From: Arboricoccus pini
Lineage (GTDB): Bacteria > Pseudomonadota > Alphaproteobacteria > Geminicoccales > Geminicoccaceae
NCBI RefSeq assembly: GCF_900187945.1
Contig: NZ_FYEH01000006.1
Span: 62,001-126,000 of the forward strand
Direction of reading: 5' to 3'
DNA length: 64,000 nt
The notes below the pieces were generated by a model. That model was not told the origin of the DNA, ran no database searches, and saw nothing but the letters and a program-made list of their open reading frames with translations. Of this stretch, positions 34,875 through 50,299 are shown piece by piece. The position numbers and the translations under genes are program-made. The stretch's first letter is position 1; each line of letters begins with the position of its first letter.

Positions 34875-36683
34875 TCAGGCGGCGGCCTCCAGGTCGAATT
34901 GCAGGGCAGCGAGACGGGCATAGAGGCCGCCACGCGCGACGAGCTCTTCATGCCTTCCCTCATCAATGACACGGCCCTGGTCGAGCACGACGATGCGGTC
35001 GGCCTTGCGCACGGTGGCTAACCGATGAGCGATCACAAGGCACGTTCGGCCATGGCGCAGGCGCTCGAGCGCCTCTTGGACCGCGCGTTCGCTCTCAGCA
35101 TCCAGGGCACTGGTGGCCTCGTCCAAAAGCAGAACGGACGGCTCACGCAGAATGGCGCGAGCGATGGCTATCCGCTGGCGCTGGCCGCCGCTCAGCCGCA
35201 CCCCTCGTTCCCCCAAAAAAGTCTTATAACCTTGGGGCAACCGTTCGACGAAGCCTTGCGCCGCGGCGTTGCGCGTGGCGGTCACGACGGCTGCTTCATC
35301 CGCCTCTGCCAAGCCGTAGCGGATATTCGTCAAAACGTCGGTGCCGAACAAAACCGGGTCTTGCGAGACCAATGCCAGGCGCCGGCGAAACATTTCGGGC
35401 GCCAAGCTCCTCAGATCCTGCCCATCAAGAAAAACGCGGCCTTCCTGGGGATCATAGAAGCGCATGAGCAGATCGAAGATCGTCGACTTGCCAGCGCCTG
35501 AGGGACCGACGATAGCGACCGTCTCGCCCGGCCTGACCCGCAGATCGAAATGATCGAGGACGAGACGCTCCGGCGCGGAAGGATAGGCGAAGGACACACG
35601 ATTAAACTCGATCTCGCCTTGCGTGCGAGGCGGCAACGTGGCGACGATTGGTGGCGCCGCGATCTTGGGCTTGATGTCCATCAACTCGAATATCCGCTCC
35701 GCGGCACCGGCGGCGCGTTGAAGATCACCAAAGGTGTCGCTCAATCCCCCCATGGCACCGGCCACGACGCTGGCGAAGAAAACGAAGGATGCAAGCTCGC
35801 CTGCGGTAAGACGCCCCGAGACGACGTCCTGACCACCAATCCAGAGCACCACGACGATGGCACCGATGACCAGCGTTATGACGATCGCTGCCAGAAAGGC
35901 TCGGGCCCAGGCATAACGCGATGCCGCGGCGAAGGCCGTCTCGCAAGCCTCGGCGAACCGCCGGCTTTCATGCTCCTCCTGCCCGAATGCCTGAACGGTC
36001 TTAACGGCGCCGAGCGTCTCCTCTGCCAGCGCACTGACTGTTGCGACCCGGTCCTGGGTCTGACGCGACAGCCTACGTACATTTCTGCCGATGACGACGA
36101 TCGGTACGACGACAAGCGGTACAACAAGAAGGATGAGGCCGGTTAATTTCGGATTGGTTACGGCCAGCAGAACCAGACCGCCCACGAGCATAAGGAGATT
36201 ACGCAACGCCTGGGTGACACTGGAAGCGATCACCGCCTGGATCACGCTCGTATCGGTCGTCAGGCGGGAAATAATCTCGCCCATCCTCCTCGTCTCGAAA
36301 AATCCCGGCTCAAGACGGATGAGACGCCGTTCGAGTGATGTCCGCAGATCGGCAACGACACGTTCGCCTAGCCAAGTCACAAGGTACGAACGGGTAAACG
36401 TGGAAAGCGCCAGAACGACGATCACGATGAGGACCGCCTCGACAGCATGCCGCATGGCGATCAAGCGCCCACCGACCAATCCATGGTCGATCAGATAGCG
36501 CATGCCCACGCCCAGCGACAGAACGGATCCGGCAGCCAGAACGAGCGCCAGAAGCGCTAGAACGAGTCGCCAGCGATAGGGTAGGAGATATCTTGCCAGC
36601 CGCTTGAGCGGCTTGAGGTTGCGGCTTTTCTCACGGCCATCGCCTACGACCTGGGCCGTCCGTCGACCTGATGCCATCGCCAT
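34875..36683 (-). CDS. ABC transporter, fused permease and ATPase (ABCB/MsbA-type exporter)
   Basis: About 602-residue half-transporter exporting lipids, peptides or drugs as a homodimer. Six transmembrane helices in residues about 30-310 (for example YLLPYRWRLVLALLALVLAA and the DTSVIQAVIASSVTQ region), then the ATPase domain: Walker A IVGPSGAGKSTIFDLL, Q-loop ALVSQDPVLFG, signature RLSGGQRQRIAIARAIL, Walker B LLLDEATSALD and the switch His in LVIAHRL. The frame is open to 36842, but the Met at 36683 (or 36677) matches the family; the extra 5' residues look non-coding. There is no accessory gene nearby. Confidence 0.9.
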   Translation of the reverse strand: MAMASGRRTAQVVGDGREKSRNLKPLKRLARYLLPYRWRLVLALLALVLAAGSVLSLGVGMRYLIDHGLVGGRLIAMRHAVEAVLIVIVVLALSTFTRSYLVTWLGERVVADLRTSLERRLIRLEPGFFETRRMGEIISRLTTDTSVIQAVIASSVTQALRNLLMLVGGLVLLAVTNPKLTGLILLVVPLVVVPIVVIGRNVRRLSRQTQDRVATVSALAEETLGAVKTVQAFGQEEHESRRFAEACETAFAAASRYAWARAFLAAIVITLVIGAIVVVLWIGGQDVVSGRLTAGELASFVFFASVVAGAMGGLSDTFGDLQRAAGAAERIFELMDIKPKIAAPPIVATLPPRTQGEIEFNRVSFAYPSAPERLVLDHFDLRVRPGETVAIVGPSGAGKSTIFDLLMRFYDPQEGRVFLDGQDLRSLAPEMFRRRLALVSQDPVLFGTDVLTNIRYGLAEADEAAVVTATRNAAAQGFVERLPQGYKTFLGERGVRLSGGQRQRIAIARAILREPSVLLLDEATSALDAESERAVQEALERLRHGRTCLVIAHRLATVRKADRIVVLDQGRVIDEGRHEELVARGGLYARLAALQFDLEAAA

Positions 36684-37042
36684 TCTCTTACCGGCTGAAT
36701 CGAAATAAACTTGTTCTATGCCATAGGCCTGAGGCGGGTCAGGCAGCAACCCCAAGCCTGTCACACCGACGAATAAGCCGCGGCCGCGAATGATCTGCGT
36801 ACATGTCCGATCTGCTGCCGGAGATCCCGTCGCTGCGGTCAACGACGTTCGGTCGCGCTACCAGCGGATTTCCCGAAGGCGCCATCGCTTGCCTTTGCCG
36901 AGGGGTTCGGTTAGACAAGCGTCCGCACATGCTAGGCAAAGCGTTCGGCCCGGGCAGGAAACCGCCTGGAAGGGCCTTTTCTGCTGTTGTTGAACTTCTC
37001 CTACATTCGTCTCCATCAAGTTTCGTCTCGAGGATCGGCCAA
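36684..37042. other. Intergenic region between the ABC exporter and rpmE
   Basis: A divergent promoter region of about 360 bases. Short open frames on either strand are not convincing. Bases near 36985-37030 are relatively AT-rich (GTTGAACTTCTCCTACATTCG) and probably hold the rpmE promoter; no exact boxes can be claimed. Confidence 0.4.
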
Positions 37043-37500: not shown

Positions 37501-37530
37501 CCCGCCGATCGATATGATCGGCGGGTCTTT
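37501..37530 (+). terminator. Intrinsic terminator of rpmE-rpmJ
   Basis: CCCGCCGATC and GATCGGCGGG form a perfect 10-bp stem with a GATAT loop, followed by TCTTTCGTCTTT. It ends the ribosomal protein transcript 40 bases after rpmJ and precedes the GlcD-like gene. Confidence 0.88.
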
Positions 37531-37585
37531 CGTCTTTGTACGGCCGTATCGAAAACTGATCGGCCCAATCAGGGAGCTTATGATC

Positions 37586-39073
37586 ATGGAGATGCCTGCG
37601 CTTGACCGGGACTCGCTGGCAAAGCGTGATCGCATCGTGGCTGCCCTGCGTGCGATCGTCCCCGGCGAGGGCGTCATCGCCAACGTGACCGAAATGCGGG
37701 CCTATGAATGCGACGCCCTGTCGGCCTACCGGACACTACCGATGGCGGTTGTGCTTCCCGCCAGTGTCCAGCAGGTCTCAGCCATTCTTAAGCTCTGCAA
37801 CGACGAGAAGATCAAGGTCGTGCCCCGCGGCGGCGGCACATCGCTTTCGGGCGGCTCTTTGCCTCTCGGCGACGGCATCGTCCTTGGCATGGGCAAGTTC
37901 AACAAAATCCTCGATGTCGATTTCCAGAATCGCTGTGTGGTCGTCCAACCGGGCGTTACCAATCTCGCCATCACGCGGGCAGTCGAGCATGAAGGTTTCT
38001 ATTACGCTCCCGATCCTTCCTCGCAGATTGCCTGCTCGATCGGAGGTAATGTCGCGGAGAATTCGGGTGGCGTACATTGCCTGAAATACGGCCTGACGAC
38101 CAATAATCTGCTTGGCGTCGAGATGGTACTTCCAGATGGATCCGTCATTCGTCTAGGAGGCCGGCATCTGGACGCGGACGGCTACGACCTGCTCGGTGTG
38201 ATGACCGGATCGGAAGGCCTCTTGGGCGTCGTCACCGAGGTGACGGTTCGAATCTTGAAGAAGCCCGACACGGCTCGCGCCGTCCTGATGGGATTTCCCA
38301 GTAACGAGACCGGCGGCGATACGGTGGCCTCGATCATCGCGGCTGGCATCATCCCGGGTGGCCTCGAGATGATGGACAGACCGGCAATTCATGCCGCCGA
38401 AGACTTTTGCAAAGCTGGCTACCCGAGGGATGTCGAGGCGCTGCTCATTTGTGAGCTTGATGGCACGGCGCAAGAGGTCGATCACCTGATCGACATCGTC
38501 GCCGCCATTGCACGCCAGCATCATGCATCGTTCATCAAGGTGTCGGAGAGCGAAGAAGAGCGAACCCGCTTCTGGGCGGGTCGCAAAGCCGCCTTTCCGG
38601 CTGTCGGCCGCATCTCGCCAGACTATCTCTGCATGGATGGCACCATCCCACGCAGCCAACTGGCCCACGTCCTTAAACGAATGGAGGAAATGAGCGCGCA
38701 TTACGGCCTAAGGGTCGCCAATGTCTTCCATGCTGGGGATGGCAATCTGCACCCCCTCATCTTGTTCGACGCCAACGTTCCCGACGAGTTACGCAAGGCC
38801 GAAGACTTCGGCGCGGACATCCTCAAGCTCTGCGTCGAGGTCGGCGGCGTCCTTACCGGGGAGCACGGAGTAGGGGTGGAAAAACGTGACCTGATGCCCT
38901 CCATGTTCAACGAAAATGAGCTGGCCCAACAGCAGCGACTGAAATGCGCCTTCGACCCTGTCCAAATTCTAAATCCCGGAAAGGTCTTTCCAAAGTTGCA
39001 CCGTTGCGCGGAACTTGGGAGGCTCCACGTCCAGCGGGGCGCCCTGCCCTTTCCGGATCTGCCGCGCTTCTGA
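37586..39073 (+). CDS. FAD-linked oxidase, GlcD-like (glycolate/D-lactate dehydrogenase family)
   Basis: About 495-residue flavoprotein of the VAO family that would oxidise a 2-hydroxy acid. FAD-binding PCMH domain: KVVPRGGGTSLSGGSLPLGDG, VVQPGVTNLAI, IACSIGGNVAENSGGVHCLK and LGVMTGSEGLLGVVTEV. The C-terminal domain ends with FHAGDGNLHPLILFD and LTGEHGVGVEKRDLMPSMF. These match GlcD closely. The start is ATG 37586 with AGGGAG nine bases upstream. The usual glcE and glcF subunits are absent on either side, so it may act alone or with distant partners. Confidence 0.88.
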   Translation: MEMPALDRDSLAKRDRIVAALRAIVPGEGVIANVTEMRAYECDALSAYRTLPMAVVLPASVQQVSAILKLCNDEKIKVVPRGGGTSLSGGSLPLGDGIVLGMGKFNKILDVDFQNRCVVVQPGVTNLAITRAVEHEGFYYAPDPSSQIACSIGGNVAENSGGVHCLKYGLTTNNLLGVEMVLPDGSVIRLGGRHLDADGYDLLGVMTGSEGLLGVVTEVTVRILKKPDTARAVLMGFPSNETGGDTVASIIAAGIIPGGLEMMDRPAIHAAEDFCKAGYPRDVEALLICELDGTAQEVDHLIDIVAAIARQHHASFIKVSESEEERTRFWAGRKAAFPAVGRISPDYLCMDGTIPRSQLAHVLKRMEEMSAHYGLRVANVFHAGDGNLHPLILFDANVPDELRKAEDFGADILKLCVEVGGVLTGEHGVGVEKRDLMPSMFNENELAQQQRLKCAFDPVQILNPGKVFPKLHRCAELGRLHVQRGALPFPDLPRF

Positions 39074-39091
39074 CTGCGAGGCATAGGCCCA

Positions 39092-39571
39092 CTAGCTGGG
39101 AGGCATCAGCTTCGCGGTGAGGACTGCTTCCGCGGCCACGCTGCCTTCTACCGTGGCCCGTCCTGCATATTTCCAGACACCCAACCTGTGGCGATCCAGT
39201 GTTACTTCTAGTCTGAGTTGATCTCCGGGACGGACAGGACGACGGAATTTCGCCCCATCCACGCCCATGAAATAGACCCCGCTGCCATTGGCCCACTCGC
39301 CCAAGCTGCGGATCGCCAAGACTGCGGCAGCCTGCGCCATGGCTTCAATGATCATCACCCCCGGCATGATCGGATCGCCGGGGAAATGCCCCATGAAAAA
39401 CGGCTCGTTGAAGGTAACGTTCTTGATACCGGCAGCACTTTCGAAGGCACGCGCATCGACTAGGCGGTCGAGCAACAACATCGGATAGCGATGCGGCAAT
39501 ATCGCCAATATCTCTGCATAACCGACATCGGGCAGCCTAGTGCCATGCGGCAACGGCGTCTTATCCGTCAT
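39092..39571 (-). CDS. fabZ: 3-hydroxyacyl-ACP dehydratase FabZ
   Basis: 159-residue hotdog-fold dehydratase of fatty acid synthesis. ILPHRYPMLLLDR carries the catalytic His; FMGHFPGDPIMPGVMIIEAM carries the catalytic Glu. Normally fabZ stands in ompH-lpxD-fabZ-lpxA-lpxB. Here ompH ends only 40 bases upstream with no lpxD between, and the downstream neighbour is the facing GlcD gene, so lpxA/lpxB are not here either. Confidence 0.94.
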   Translation of the reverse strand: MTDKTPLPHGTRLPDVGYAEILAILPHRYPMLLLDRLVDARAFESAAGIKNVTFNEPFFMGHFPGDPIMPGVMIIEAMAQAAAVLAIRSLGEWANGSGVYFMGVDGAKFRRPVRPGDQLRLEVTLDRHRLGVWKYAGRATVEGSVAAEAVLTAKLMPPS

Positions 39572-39611
39572 TATCTTCTCATCGTCGCTTGGGCCGAGTT
39601 CCGATTAGCGG

Positions 39612-40289
39612 TCAGTTCGCCGTATCGGGAACCTCAACATGGGGCAGTTTCTTGTCGAGAATGGCCAGAACATCCTGGGTCAGGTCAAGGTCTGGCGCGA
39701 AGAGCAAGACCGTCGAGGACGGCAGGACCAAGTTGAAGCCTCGCTGCTTGGCCAGCTCGTCAACGACCTCGATCACCGCCTGACGGACCGTACCAAGTGC
39801 GCGGGCACGCACGGCCTCCAATTGCTGCCGCCGCTCCTGCGACAAACGTTGCGCTTGCTGGACACGCTGCTCAAAATCCCGCCGCTTTTGCGTATAAACC
39901 TCCGGCGCGAGTACACTCCGCTGCCGGGCGATCTCCTTATCGGTATCGTAGAGATGCTGTTCTTCGGCTGACAATTCGTCGAGATAGCTTTTTCGCCGCG
40001 CCTCGACCTGATCATTGATGTCCTTGGCGGCCTTGGCGTCGCTCATCAACCGTTGAAAGTCGACGACAGCCGCCACCGTCGTTGGCATCGGCAGAGCATT
40101 TTGGTCCGCCTTGGCGTCGGGACTTGCAGGCGACGTCGCCGCGTCCTCCGCATTCCCCACATTCGGGATAACGAACAAAGAGGTCGCAAGAGCGAATGCC
40201 GCCGCAGCATGTCCGCGCGCCCAGCGGCCTTCACCGAATCGCCAACATGTGCCGCTTTGGAGAGCCTCGCTCACGTGTTTCGCCGCCAC
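39612..40289 (-). CDS. OmpH/Skp family periplasmic chaperone
   Basis: 225-residue exported chaperone that escorts outer-membrane proteins to BamA. Signal sequence about residues 25-47 (AAAAFALATSLFVIPNVGNA), then AAVVDFQRLMSDAKAAKDI, a long charged helical hairpin (about 90-170, rich in Gln/Arg/Glu) and FNLVLPSSTVLLFAPDLDLT near the end, all typical of Skp/OmpH. The start is a GTG at 40289 behind GAGGGCG, six bases after the bamA stop. Confidence 0.88.
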   Translation of the reverse strand: MAAKHVSEALQSGTCWRFGEGRWARGHAAAAFALATSLFVIPNVGNAEDAATSPASPDAKADQNALPMPTTVAAVVDFQRLMSDAKAAKDINDQVEARRKSYLDELSAEEQHLYDTDKEIARQRSVLAPEVYTQKRRDFEQRVQQAQRLSQERRQQLEAVRARALGTVRQAVIEVVDELAKQRGFNLVLPSSTVLLFAPDLDLTQDVLAILDKKLPHVEVPDTAN

Positions 40290-40295
40290 CGCCCT

Positions 40296-42569
40296 CTAGA
40301 AGCGCGTGCCGAACGACAAGCGGAAGATCTCAGTCTTATCGCCACTATCCTTGACGACAGGCTGGGCAATGTCGATTGCGAGCGGACCCAATGGCGAAAC
40401 CCATGACAGACCCACGCCGGTCGATACGCGGATATTGCCGCTGTCCTCGATACCACCACCATGCAGGTCGGTTTTCGTTAGCGTACCGAAATCAGAGAAG
40501 GCACGGCCGAAGATTCGCAGCTCGTCGGGCAGACCCAAAGGAAAGCGCACTTCCGTGGTGCCAACCCAATAGGCGTTGCCGCCTAGCGCGTCGTCGGTGT
40601 CCTTGTCCCTCGGACCCATGCCCGCATAGTCAAAACCGCGGAAGGTCTGGCCGCCTATGAAGAAGCGGTCAGTCAGGTGGACGTCCGATCCCAGGCCGAA
40701 AATATAGCCGGCACTGGCGCCAAGATTGAGAACCACGTCTGGCACGATTGAATAATACCAGTCAGCCCGGCCCTCATGGCGCAACCAACGATTGTCGCCG
40801 CCGACCCCGGCAACGTCTTCGTCCACTCGGAAATAATAACCTGAAGAGGGAAGGAAAACGGTGTCACGCCGATCATAGGCAAAGCTTTGGCCAGGCCCGG
40901 ACGTCAGTCTTTGACCCTCTTCCCGCTTGATGTAGCGCGACGCGTCGTCATCGACGTTCTTGATCTCGTCGAGCCGCAACGTGTAGCGCACAGTGTGCTT
41001 GAGATATTCTGTCAGCGGATAGGTGGCACGCAGCGTGATGCCCGTCCGATTCTCATCGAAATTGGCCTCGCTTTGATAATTCGTCTGCGAGCGGTAGACG
41101 TCGAAGCCGGCGGCGATTTCCTTGTTAAGGAAATAGGGCTCCGTATAGCTCAGCTGGATGAGCTGGCGACGTCCTGATACCGTGAAATTGGCCGATAGCT
41201 CCCGTCCGGTTCCCAGAAGATTGCGCTCCGAGAGACGGATGTCGCCCAACGGGCCATCGCTTGTCGAAAACCCGGCACCAAAGGAGAGCTCGCCTGTGGA
41301 CTTCTCGGTAACCGCGACATTGATGATGATCCGGTCAGGGGCGCTGCCGGGTGCCGTCGTGACATTTACGGAATCGAAGAAATCGAGATTACGAACGCGC
41401 TGCTGTGAGCGACGCAGGAGGGCCGAGTTGAAGGGATCGCCTTCGGCCAGCCTGAACTCACGCCGGATGACCTCGTCGAGCGTGCGAACATTGCCGGTAA
41501 TGTTGATCTTCTCGACGTAAACTCGGGGACCTTCCTTCACACCGTAGTTGATGCCAATCGTCAGATTGTCACGATCCTGAGTGGTCTGCGGGTCGACCTG
41601 CACGAAGGCGTAACCGAGCTGGCCAAGCCGGTCGGTGATCGACTGCACCGTCGCTTCCACCTCGTCGGCGTTGTAGGTCTTGCCTTCTTTGGTTGTGATC
41701 AGTGACTTCAACTCGTCGACGGGCACATCCGGCACCGAACTCGTAAGGTCAATGGCGCCAAACTTGTAGCGCTGACCCTCCTGCACCGTGAAGGTGATGT
41801 AGAAATCCTTGCCGTCCTGTCCCAGCTCCGCGATCGCCGAGACTACTGTGAAGTCCGCATAGCCTCGTGCCAGATAGAAACGCCGCAGCATTTCCTGGTC
41901 GAAATTCAGCCGATCGGGATCGTAATTGTCGTTCGACGAGAAGAACCGATACCAAGCGCTCTCCTTCGTCGAAATGACCCCACGCAGCGTGTTTGCCGAG
42001 AAGTCCTTGTTACCAACGAAAGAAATCGCCGCCACCCGGGTCATTTCGCCCTCGTCGATCTCGAAGACGAGATCCACGCGATTTTGGTCAAGATCGATGG
42101 TCTTGGGCTCGACCCTCGCCGCATAGCGGCCCTGGCGGCGATACAGATCCAAGATACGCTGGACGGCATCCCGGACGCGCGCCTCGCTGAAGACTACGCG
42201 CGGCCGAAGCTGGATCTCGCTCTCCAGCGTCTTGTCTTCGATACGCTTATTGCCCTCGAAGGCGATGCGATTGATGATCGGATTCTCGACCACGTGTACC
42301 GTCAAGGTCGAGCCGTCCTGACTGATCGAGACATCCTTGAACAGCCCGGTGGCGTAGAGATTCTTCAAGGACTGGTCGAGCGCTGTCGGATCGAAATTAT
42401 CGCCGCGATGAACCGCGAGATAGCTCTCAACGGTCGACTGCTCCACGCGCTGATTGCCCTGCACGGCGATGTTGGCGATCGTCCCACCGCTCGTCTGCGC
42501 CATGGCGGAGACCGTCAGGACGAACGGTATCAGCGTGGCCATCATCAGCCGTGAGATCAACGCCCGCAT
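40296..42569 (-). CDS. bamA: Outer membrane protein assembly factor BamA
   Basis: 757-residue Omp85 protein that inserts beta-barrel proteins into the outer membrane. Signal peptide residues 1-24 (cleavage near SAMAQ/TSGG); five POTRA domains (about 28-425), with repeats such as IANIAVQGNQRVEQSTV, INRIAFEGNKRIEDKTLES and EKINITGNVRTLDEVIRREF; then the 16-strand barrel with QTFRGFDYAGMGPRD (the conserved loop 6 RGF motif) and a C-terminal phenylalanine (FRLSFGTRF). Located between rseP and ompH as usual. Confidence 0.97.
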   Translation of the reverse strand: MRALISRLMMATLIPFVLTVSAMAQTSGGTIANIAVQGNQRVEQSTVESYLAVHRGDNFDPTALDQSLKNLYATGLFKDVSISQDGSTLTVHVVENPIINRIAFEGNKRIEDKTLESEIQLRPRVVFSEARVRDAVQRILDLYRRQGRYAARVEPKTIDLDQNRVDLVFEIDEGEMTRVAAISFVGNKDFSANTLRGVISTKESAWYRFFSSNDNYDPDRLNFDQEMLRRFYLARGYADFTVVSAIAELGQDGKDFYITFTVQEGQRYKFGAIDLTSSVPDVPVDELKSLITTKEGKTYNADEVEATVQSITDRLGQLGYAFVQVDPQTTQDRDNLTIGINYGVKEGPRVYVEKINITGNVRTLDEVIRREFRLAEGDPFNSALLRRSQQRVRNLDFFDSVNVTTAPGSAPDRIIINVAVTEKSTGELSFGAGFSTSDGPLGDIRLSERNLLGTGRELSANFTVSGRRQLIQLSYTEPYFLNKEIAAGFDVYRSQTNYQSEANFDENRTGITLRATYPLTEYLKHTVRYTLRLDEIKNVDDDASRYIKREEGQRLTSGPGQSFAYDRRDTVFLPSSGYYFRVDEDVAGVGGDNRWLRHEGRADWYYSIVPDVVLNLGASAGYIFGLGSDVHLTDRFFIGGQTFRGFDYAGMGPRDKDTDDALGGNAYWVGTTEVRFPLGLPDELRIFGRAFSDFGTLTKTDLHGGGIEDSGNIRVSTGVGLSWVSPLGPLAIDIAQPVVKDSGDKTEIFRLSFGTRF

Positions 42570-50076: not shown

Positions 50077-50299
50077 GTCTTTCGTCCTTGATCCGGTTAT
50101 TCCACCGCAGGCATTGAGCCCGGCAACGATCTCCATCTGGGATGATCGACGTCCGGACACCGGAAGGCGTGCAAAAGCAGCACGCATAAGCCCGCGTGAG
50201 AGGTGCGGCGGCTTTTACTCGCATTGTCTTGCAAGCGCAACCGCTAGCATTGACAGCGCCTGTTGGCGTCCTAGCCTGCCTTCGCCAGAGGAGAGCTCA

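Follow-up and report, generated by a model that had tools for sequence, protein, structure and literature searches.

The region analysed (the window) is a stretch of 64,000 nucleotides, positions 62001-126000 of contig C8 in the genome of Arboricoccus pini (G000), an alphaproteobacterial assembly of 4.07 Mb in 28 contigs that is estimated to be 99.3% complete and is not closed. On its minus strand, fabZ (39092-39571) encodes a 3-hydroxyacyl-ACP dehydratase that scored above the cut-offs of NCBIfam models TIGR01750 (181 bits, cut-off 155) and NF000582 and matched PF07977. The neighboring genes on the same strand are an ompH/skp-like gene for a periplasmic chaperone (39612-40289; PF03938, E 1e-22) and bamA, for the outer membrane protein assembly factor (40296-42569; NCBIfam TIGR03303, 797 bits against a cut-off of 297), and 5' of bamA come rseP, dxr, cdsA and uppS, identified by scanning, followed by frr and pyrH, which were identified from sequence alone without a profile scan, in the same order as in relatives. 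The preliminary description of this DNA had placed ompH and fabZ 40 bases apart with nothing between them, and a spacer of exactly that length was found (39572-39611). Beyond the fabZ stop, 18 bases (39074-39091) separate fabZ from a convergent gene on the plus strand (37514-39073) for a FAD-linked oxidase (PF01565, PF02913); the facing GlcD described earlier is thus indeed the next gene and is best called GlcD-like, its score lying just below the NCBIfam glcD cut-off (525 against 568). The absence of lpxD, lpxA and lpxB from the bamA-ompH-fabZ locus, the central claim of that description, was likewise upheld, and near fabZ in the window no match to lpxI was seen either. Fatty acid synthesis requires fabZ whether or not lipid A is produced.

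Two other features of the window were noted. An ABC transporter gene at 34875-36842 (34875-36683 scanned) passed an NCBI MsbA-related model (805 against 780) and failed the model for the lipid A flippase MsbA itself (503 against 602); its product could be the flippase of another lipid. On the minus strand, positions 50077-50200 just reached the gathering score of the rpsB leader RNA family RF01815 (40.4 against 40).

Comparisons within the family were made with 31 genomes from 16 genera. In all eight genomes with an LpxB match (lpxB-positive), lpxD occupied the position of the 40-base spacer between ompH and fabZ, whereas ompH adjoined fabZ in 20 of the 23 genomes without such a match (lpxB-negative); the remaining three were unreadable at this junction, G011 for want of a fabZ match and G012 and G025 because of a contig edge. 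The order in G018 and G004 was ompH-lpxD-fabZ-lpxA-lpxI-lpxB, with lpxA, an lpxI-like gene and lpxB where A. pini has the 18-base spacer, lpxI being a putative assignment. The gene beyond fabZ varied among lpxB-negative relatives: G005 and G007 have what we take to be a citrate-synthase-like gene facing fabZ (presumably the same in G003 after one small gene), and G001 and G013 a presumed carboxylase-like gene, all of them named from the start of their sequences and unscanned. Chance or an assembly gap as the cause of the ompH-fabZ junction was ruled out by the lack of any N in the window and by the family-wide pattern at the locus. A contig scan for relatives returned none that were close, FabZ identity being 49-63% among the 80 loci kept. 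Among the 17 named loci in the comparison, five had no lpxD or lpxA match beside fabZ, namely those of Kordiimonas (L026), Sphingomonas parva (L073) and three bins that grouped with Kordiimonas (L028, L066 and L068).

A six-frame search of the whole A. pini genome with curated Pfam models for the LpxA C-terminal domain, LpxB, LpxC, LpxD and Kdo transferase (PF04413) gave no match to LpxA, LpxB, LpxC, LpxD or Kdo transferase (WaaA/KdtA) in this 99.3% complete assembly. All five models matched the E. coli and Caulobacter (Caulobacter vibrioides) genomes used as positive controls and at least eight of the 31 family genomes, where the family's own lipid A enzymes reached scores of roughly 50-360 bits. 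LpxA, LpxB and Kdo transferase were found in the identical eight genomes (G002, G004, G006, G009, G010, G018, G019 and G024), LpxD was above cut-off in these eight with one weak match below cut-off in G013, and LpxC was matched in 14 of 31. Besides A. pini, 22 of the family genomes gave no LpxB match, and eight of these 22 are at least 99% complete. The preliminary description had posed relocation of the genes or an outer membrane without classical lipid A, and would have been refuted by lpxD, lpxA and lpxB lying together elsewhere; they had no match anywhere in the genome, so that relocation was rejected by the profile searches and the second option is the one supported. For the enzymes searched, it is nearly certain, in our uncomputed judgement, that A. 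pini would be unable to make lipid A by the known route. A gene for a KpsF/GutQ-family sugar-phosphate isomerase on contig C9 (L223:8190-9218) was kdsD-like and fell under the NCBI KdsD cut-off; kept without a Kdo transferase match, it may supply Kdo for another glycan.

The machinery that exports LPS was lost in part only. Models for LptD and for LptF/LptG matched all 31 family genomes, and the LptA/LptD-N model also matched all 31, with 30 over the cut-off, although G022 and G011 had only weak matches at the LptD N-terminus. As far as the genes can tell, A. pini keeps lptA, lptB and lptD and has LptFG only as a second-type pair; its LptB passed the NCBI LPS-export cut-off (352.8 against 240) and its LptA was just under the cut-off (67.5 against 71.7). 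The six lpxB-positive genomes that were read across the relevant junction (G002, G004, G009, G010, G018 and G024) have pepA next to lptF1-lptG1-lptD-surA, and G019 has first-type LptFG next to lptD, at the end of a contig. At the same junction in A. pini (L123), holC-pepA is followed by lptD-surA and lptF1G1 is absent. The arrangement was likewise holC-pepA and lptD-surA in G005 and G003 (holC and pepA of G003 recognised by eye), and pepA also adjoined lptD in G011, G012, G016, G020 and lpxB-positive G006. The lptA locus reads rnd-kdsD-lptA-lptB-rpoN in A. pini as opposed to rnd-kdsD-lptC-lptA-lptB-rpoN in G018. Among 11 loci read between kdsD and lptA, lptC was present in G002, G003, G009 and G018 and missing in the other seven (G000, G005, G007, G016, G017, G027 and G030). 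Genome-wide, the LptC model PF06835 matched 7 of 31 genomes, namely the six that were lpxB-positive and had no serine palmitoyltransferase (SPT), and G003, which retains lptC despite having no lpxB. This model gave no match in A. pini; LptC is poorly conserved, and negatives with the model are weak evidence by themselves because it also missed lpxB-positive G004 and G006. Flanking genes were joined within contigs at all three A. pini loci, ompH-fabZ, pepA-lptD and kdsD-lptA.

The sole LptF/LptG pair of A. pini (C15:14880-17338; PF03739, 215.7 and 140.1 bits) was found among putative ceramide genes, in the order fatty-acid-hydroxylase family gene, CerS-like gene, nucleotidyltransferase gene (CpgD-like), metallophosphoesterase gene, LptF2, LptG2, ceramide-kinase-like gene (DAGK domain) and CpgC-like gene. 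An operon aasR-cerR-acpR-spt, its gene order assigned by similarity to G003, lies at 377-382 kb of contig C15. Its SPT passed the NCBI equivalog cut-off NF047599 (606 against 500) and its acyl-AMP ligase passed NF006624 (765 against 600), while the SPT of G003 matched solved SPT chains (E 1e-135 to 1e-144), which we take to be those of Sphingomonas and a relative. An MFS transporter gene near the operon (L195:1643-2791, contig C15) appears as two adjacent ORFs; it is presumably Bcr/CflA-like, a similar gene, as we take it, precedes aasR in G004, and its product may be a flippase candidate. The labels CerS, CpgB, CpgC and CpgD rest on position and on likeness to the published Caulobacter cluster, as given in its descriptions (PMC11324152, PMC12275187), without direct comparison with Caulobacter sequences.

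The LptF2 profile matched several solved LptF chains over nearly their full length. Of the 23 genomes without lpxB, 16 had the LptF/G locus read, and every one of these carried second-type genes beside ceramide cluster genes; in five of the seven unread (G015, G016, G022, G023 and G029), LptF/G and SPT lay a few kb apart on one contig. Similar neighbors, with SPT and LptFG, were noted at plasmid loci of Sphingomonas parapaucimobilis, Roseomonas haemaphysalidis and Diaphorobacter sp. JS3051, and the LptF proteins of these three loci joined the second-type clade with a support of 0.86, LptG2 not being cleanly resolved. The Diaphorobacter locus (L263; NZ_CP065408.1, 46056-71180) belongs to pDCB2, an IncP conjugative plasmid that carries the sphingolipid cluster and second-type LptF/LptG together with mercury-resistance genes, and such lipid genes may therefore travel between bacteria. 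The NCBIfam LPS-export cut-offs (TIGR04407 and TIGR04408) were considered as a marker of cargo, the A. pini pair falling under both (217.2 against 230 and 173.2 against 240) and first-type LptF and LptG of G018 and G004 passing in 4 of 4 cases. This marker was rejected after controls, since second-type proteins pass too: outside A. pini, four of six scanned did so (four of five without the incomplete G004 LptF2 query), these being both proteins of Sphingomonas, LptG2 of G004 and LptF2 of G005 (230.1 against 230).

The occurrence of SPT, scored with a profile threshold of E <= 1e-100, was associated with the absence of LpxB. Within the family (n=31), SPT was found in 22 of 23 lpxB-negative genomes and in two of eight lpxB-positive genomes (G004 and G006), leaving six lpxB-positive genomes without SPT and one genome, G027 (95% complete, 260 contigs), with neither. 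In 84 other families, each represented by one genome, the corresponding rates were 8/13 and 3/71, five genomes having neither gene (G036, G047, G054, G099 and G102) and 68 having lpxB only. Fisher p values were 2.5e-4 for the family, ignoring shared ancestry, and 4.1e-6 for the other families, the latter being less exposed to shared ancestry because each family contributes one genome. Identity of SPT beyond the threshold was confirmed for A. pini and G003 only, and the matches in G006, G020 and G101 were partial. The suggestion in the preliminary description that sphingolipid synthesis genes be sought as a substitute for lipid A was borne out at the gene level by the SPT operon, the cluster and this co-distribution.

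A FastTree phylogeny of nine concatenated proteins, covering the 17 named loci and 28 family genomes (all but G011, G012 and G025, for want of data), placed the family within Alphaproteobacteria, beside three metagenome bins, one of them titled Rhodospirillales. One clade (0.998) united G003 with sphingolipid genes only, G004 with both systems and two LptFG pairs, and G002 with lipid A genes only, and loss of lipid A in this clade was therefore separate from that in the main clade, which holds A. pini. Taken literally, the tree would require more than two losses, though support is low at several nodes (0.36-0.72). The double state of G004 is less certain because this assembly is 7% contaminated. 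Within the main clade, G006 has both lipid A genes and a sphingolipid cluster; in G017, of the same genus, lpxC is the only lipid A gene left, located at ftsZ and with motif residues intact. G006 (87% complete) has lpxA, lpxB, lpxC, lpxD and Kdo transferase yet only second-type LptFG on its contigs (mixed-state loci L245, L253, L254 and L204), so LptF2G2 may be able to carry LPS too, or LptF1G1 may be unassembled. Contamination or chimerism of this bin was considered and discarded, the lipid A genes looking native: the contig with bamA, lpxD, fabZ and lpxA is sister to that of G017 (support 1.0), LpxA groups with G018 and G024 (0.94), and LpxD falls inside the family (0.97), beside G002 and G004 at only 0.41.

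LpxC without LpxB occurred in six genomes, five of which were read (G025 was not; LpxC of G012 was read by eye), and no LpxC match was found in the other 17 lpxB-negative genomes, A. pini included. At positions corresponding to those that matter in E. coli LpxC, at least one catalytic or metal-binding residue was lost in G007 (L125:7513-8409), G012 (L128), G020 (L127:6776-7753) and G008 (L126:6348-7118), the last having lost metal ligands at both motifs. All four genes follow ftsZ, the usual site, in open frame, in genomes with no lpxA, lpxB or lpxD match; on their residues alone they may be decaying or retained for a non-catalytic role. The gene trees disagree on whether G003/G004 acquired the sphingolipid cluster independently of the main clade: the SPT tree (Roseomonas nearer the main clade than G003/G004), the CerS tree (G003 with Diaphorobacter and Roseomonas, 0.91) and the LptG2 tree lean toward separate gains, whereas the LptF2 tree, midpoint-rooted so that labels near the root may shift, joins G003/G004 to the main clade with a printed support of 1.0.

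Parts of this arrangement are known. In Caulobacter crescentus, a sphingolipid cluster (CC_1152-CC_1168) includes LptC2, LptF2 and LptG2, which are proposed as a phosphosphingolipid exporter, transport not having been investigated there (PMC11324152). Similarity to A. pini extends to aasR, cerR, acpR, spt, cerS, ceramide kinase and nucleotidyltransferase genes and the second LptF/LptG pair (PMC11324152). Unlike A. pini, Caulobacter keeps lipid A, with LpxA, LpxB, LpxC and LpxD matches in the C. vibrioides control; in A. pini the sphingolipid genes occupy two separate stretches of a single contig, and no gene for the phosphoglycerate transferase CC_1159 was recognised in the cluster as read. 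Sphingomonas and relatives are described as LPS-free Alphaproteobacteria that make sphingolipids (PMC11324152, PMC10964400). S. parva (L073) resembles A. pini in having no lpxD or lpxA match beside fabZ, S. parapaucimobilis (L265) has LptF/LptG between cerR-acpR-spt and a CerS-like gene, and the feature of the Sphingomonas type consisting of SPT with a dedicated ACP and acyl-AMP ligase is met in A. pini. The second-type LptFG of Sphingomonas is only distantly related to that of the A. pini family, and its loss of lipid A was independent, since it stands in a different lineage of the tree, one with lpx-positive members of its own. Rhodothalassium salexigens, with serine palmitoyltransferase and dihydroceramides, has an outer membrane reportedly without lipopolysaccharide; the terms Lpt and lpx do not appear in its description, which leaves the export side undiscussed (PMC11762602).

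Because LPS synthesis and the first LptFG are gone from A. pini, as lptC appears to be, only the second LptFG can feed the remaining bridge. The explanation that we consider likely is that an anionic sphingolipid took the place of lipid A and is transported by LptB together with second-type LptFG, LptA and LptD, although this is deduced from genes, in the absence of lipid chemistry. Its parts differ in strength: a ceramide-based anionic lipid is very likely the replacement, and LptB2-F2G2 with LptA and LptD, the best-supported export route, is held with good though lesser confidence (both judged, not computed), since the pair is the only LptFG, is encoded with lipid synthesis genes and is accompanied by LptD in 31 of 31 genomes. 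The outer surface is probably built of sphingolipids, because lipid A genes are lost, the bridge is partly kept, and sphingolipid genes with a matching export pump are present; production of the sphingolipid, its place in the outer leaflet and its passage through LptB-F2G2-A-D are inferred. An ancestor would have gained a ceramide/phosphosphingolipid cluster with its own LptF2-LptG2 pair and then lost the lipid A genes lpxD, lpxA-lpxI-lpxB, lpxC and Kdo transferase as well as lptC, lptF1 and lptG1, the LPS-specific components of the bridge at the inner membrane, while the cargo-neutral ATPase LptB, periplasmic LptA and outer-membrane LptD would have been kept. LptB2-F2G2 would extract an anionic sphingolipid of the ceramide phosphoglycerate type from the inner membrane, LptA would pass it to LptD, and LptD would insert it into the outer leaflet.

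The most durable alternative, unlikely in our estimate, is that lipid A was lost and that LptA, LptB, LptD and LptF2G2 carry a cargo other than sphingolipid or are relics. The role of a second Lpt set in sphingolipid transport is only a published proposal and untested (PMC11324152), and the state of G006, with lipid A genes and second-type LptFG alone, is compatible with such a cargo. Against this alternative, LptD and LptF/G are matched in every family genome, unlike LpxC, which decays or disappears, and the pairing of LptF2G2 with ceramide genes in all 16 lpxB-negative loci read, and with like genes on the Roseomonas, Diaphorobacter and Sphingomonas plasmids, points to a sphingolipid cargo. 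Much less probable is synthesis of lipid A by enzymes too divergent or different for the models: single steps are known to have non-homologous replacements such as LpxH/LpxI/LpxG, but at least five would have to occur simultaneously, and precisely in a set of genomes almost all of which carry SPT; the family's own versions are picked up by the models, and lptC, lptF1 and lptG1 disappear too. That the genes moved elsewhere or lie in unassembled DNA, as an unclosed assembly in 28 contigs could permit, is hardly tenable given the unmatched models genome-wide, the flanks joined inside contigs at three loci and the lack of an LpxB match in 22 other family genomes.

Replacement of lipid A by an exported sphingolipid has evidence against it as well, namely the lack of lipid or transport data, the exceptions G006 and G027, the imperfect trade-off outside the family (3/71 and 5/13), the 0.86 support of the LptF2 clade with LptG2 poorly resolved, the failure of the NCBI cut-offs to tell the two LptFG types apart and the lptC kept by G003. 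On balance, we lean toward the further view that in two or more lineages of a single alphaproteobacterial family the Lpt bridge changed over entirely from LPS to sphingolipid through a swap of the inner-membrane permease pair alone, that it works without LptC in the A. pini branch and that living intermediates record the steps. Present genomes form a series from lipid A only, through both systems with two LptFG pairs, to sphingolipid only with lpxC intact, losing metal ligands or gone. LPS-free Alphaproteobacteria that make sphingolipids were already known; what looks new here is the lineage, the remnant of the bridge without LptC and the stepwise series, and the open-licence literature, judged mostly from listings, yielded no report of this lineage, of an LptFG swap accompanying lipid A loss or of a graded series.

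Two questions are put as open in the literature (PMC10964400, PMC11324152), namely why most Gram-negative bacteria cannot live without lipid A and some can, and by what route bacterial sphingolipids arrive at the outer membrane. The family offers a genomic answer to each and makes both accessible to experiment: throughout it, loss of lipid A goes with sphingolipid genes and, where read, with sphingolipid-linked LptFG, LptD being present in all 31 genomes. The prediction is that LptFG and LptC would choose the cargo and that LptB, LptA and LptD would be neutral. Since 8 of 13 outside families without an LpxB match have SPT, the same swap would be expected to have recurred in other Alphaproteobacteria.
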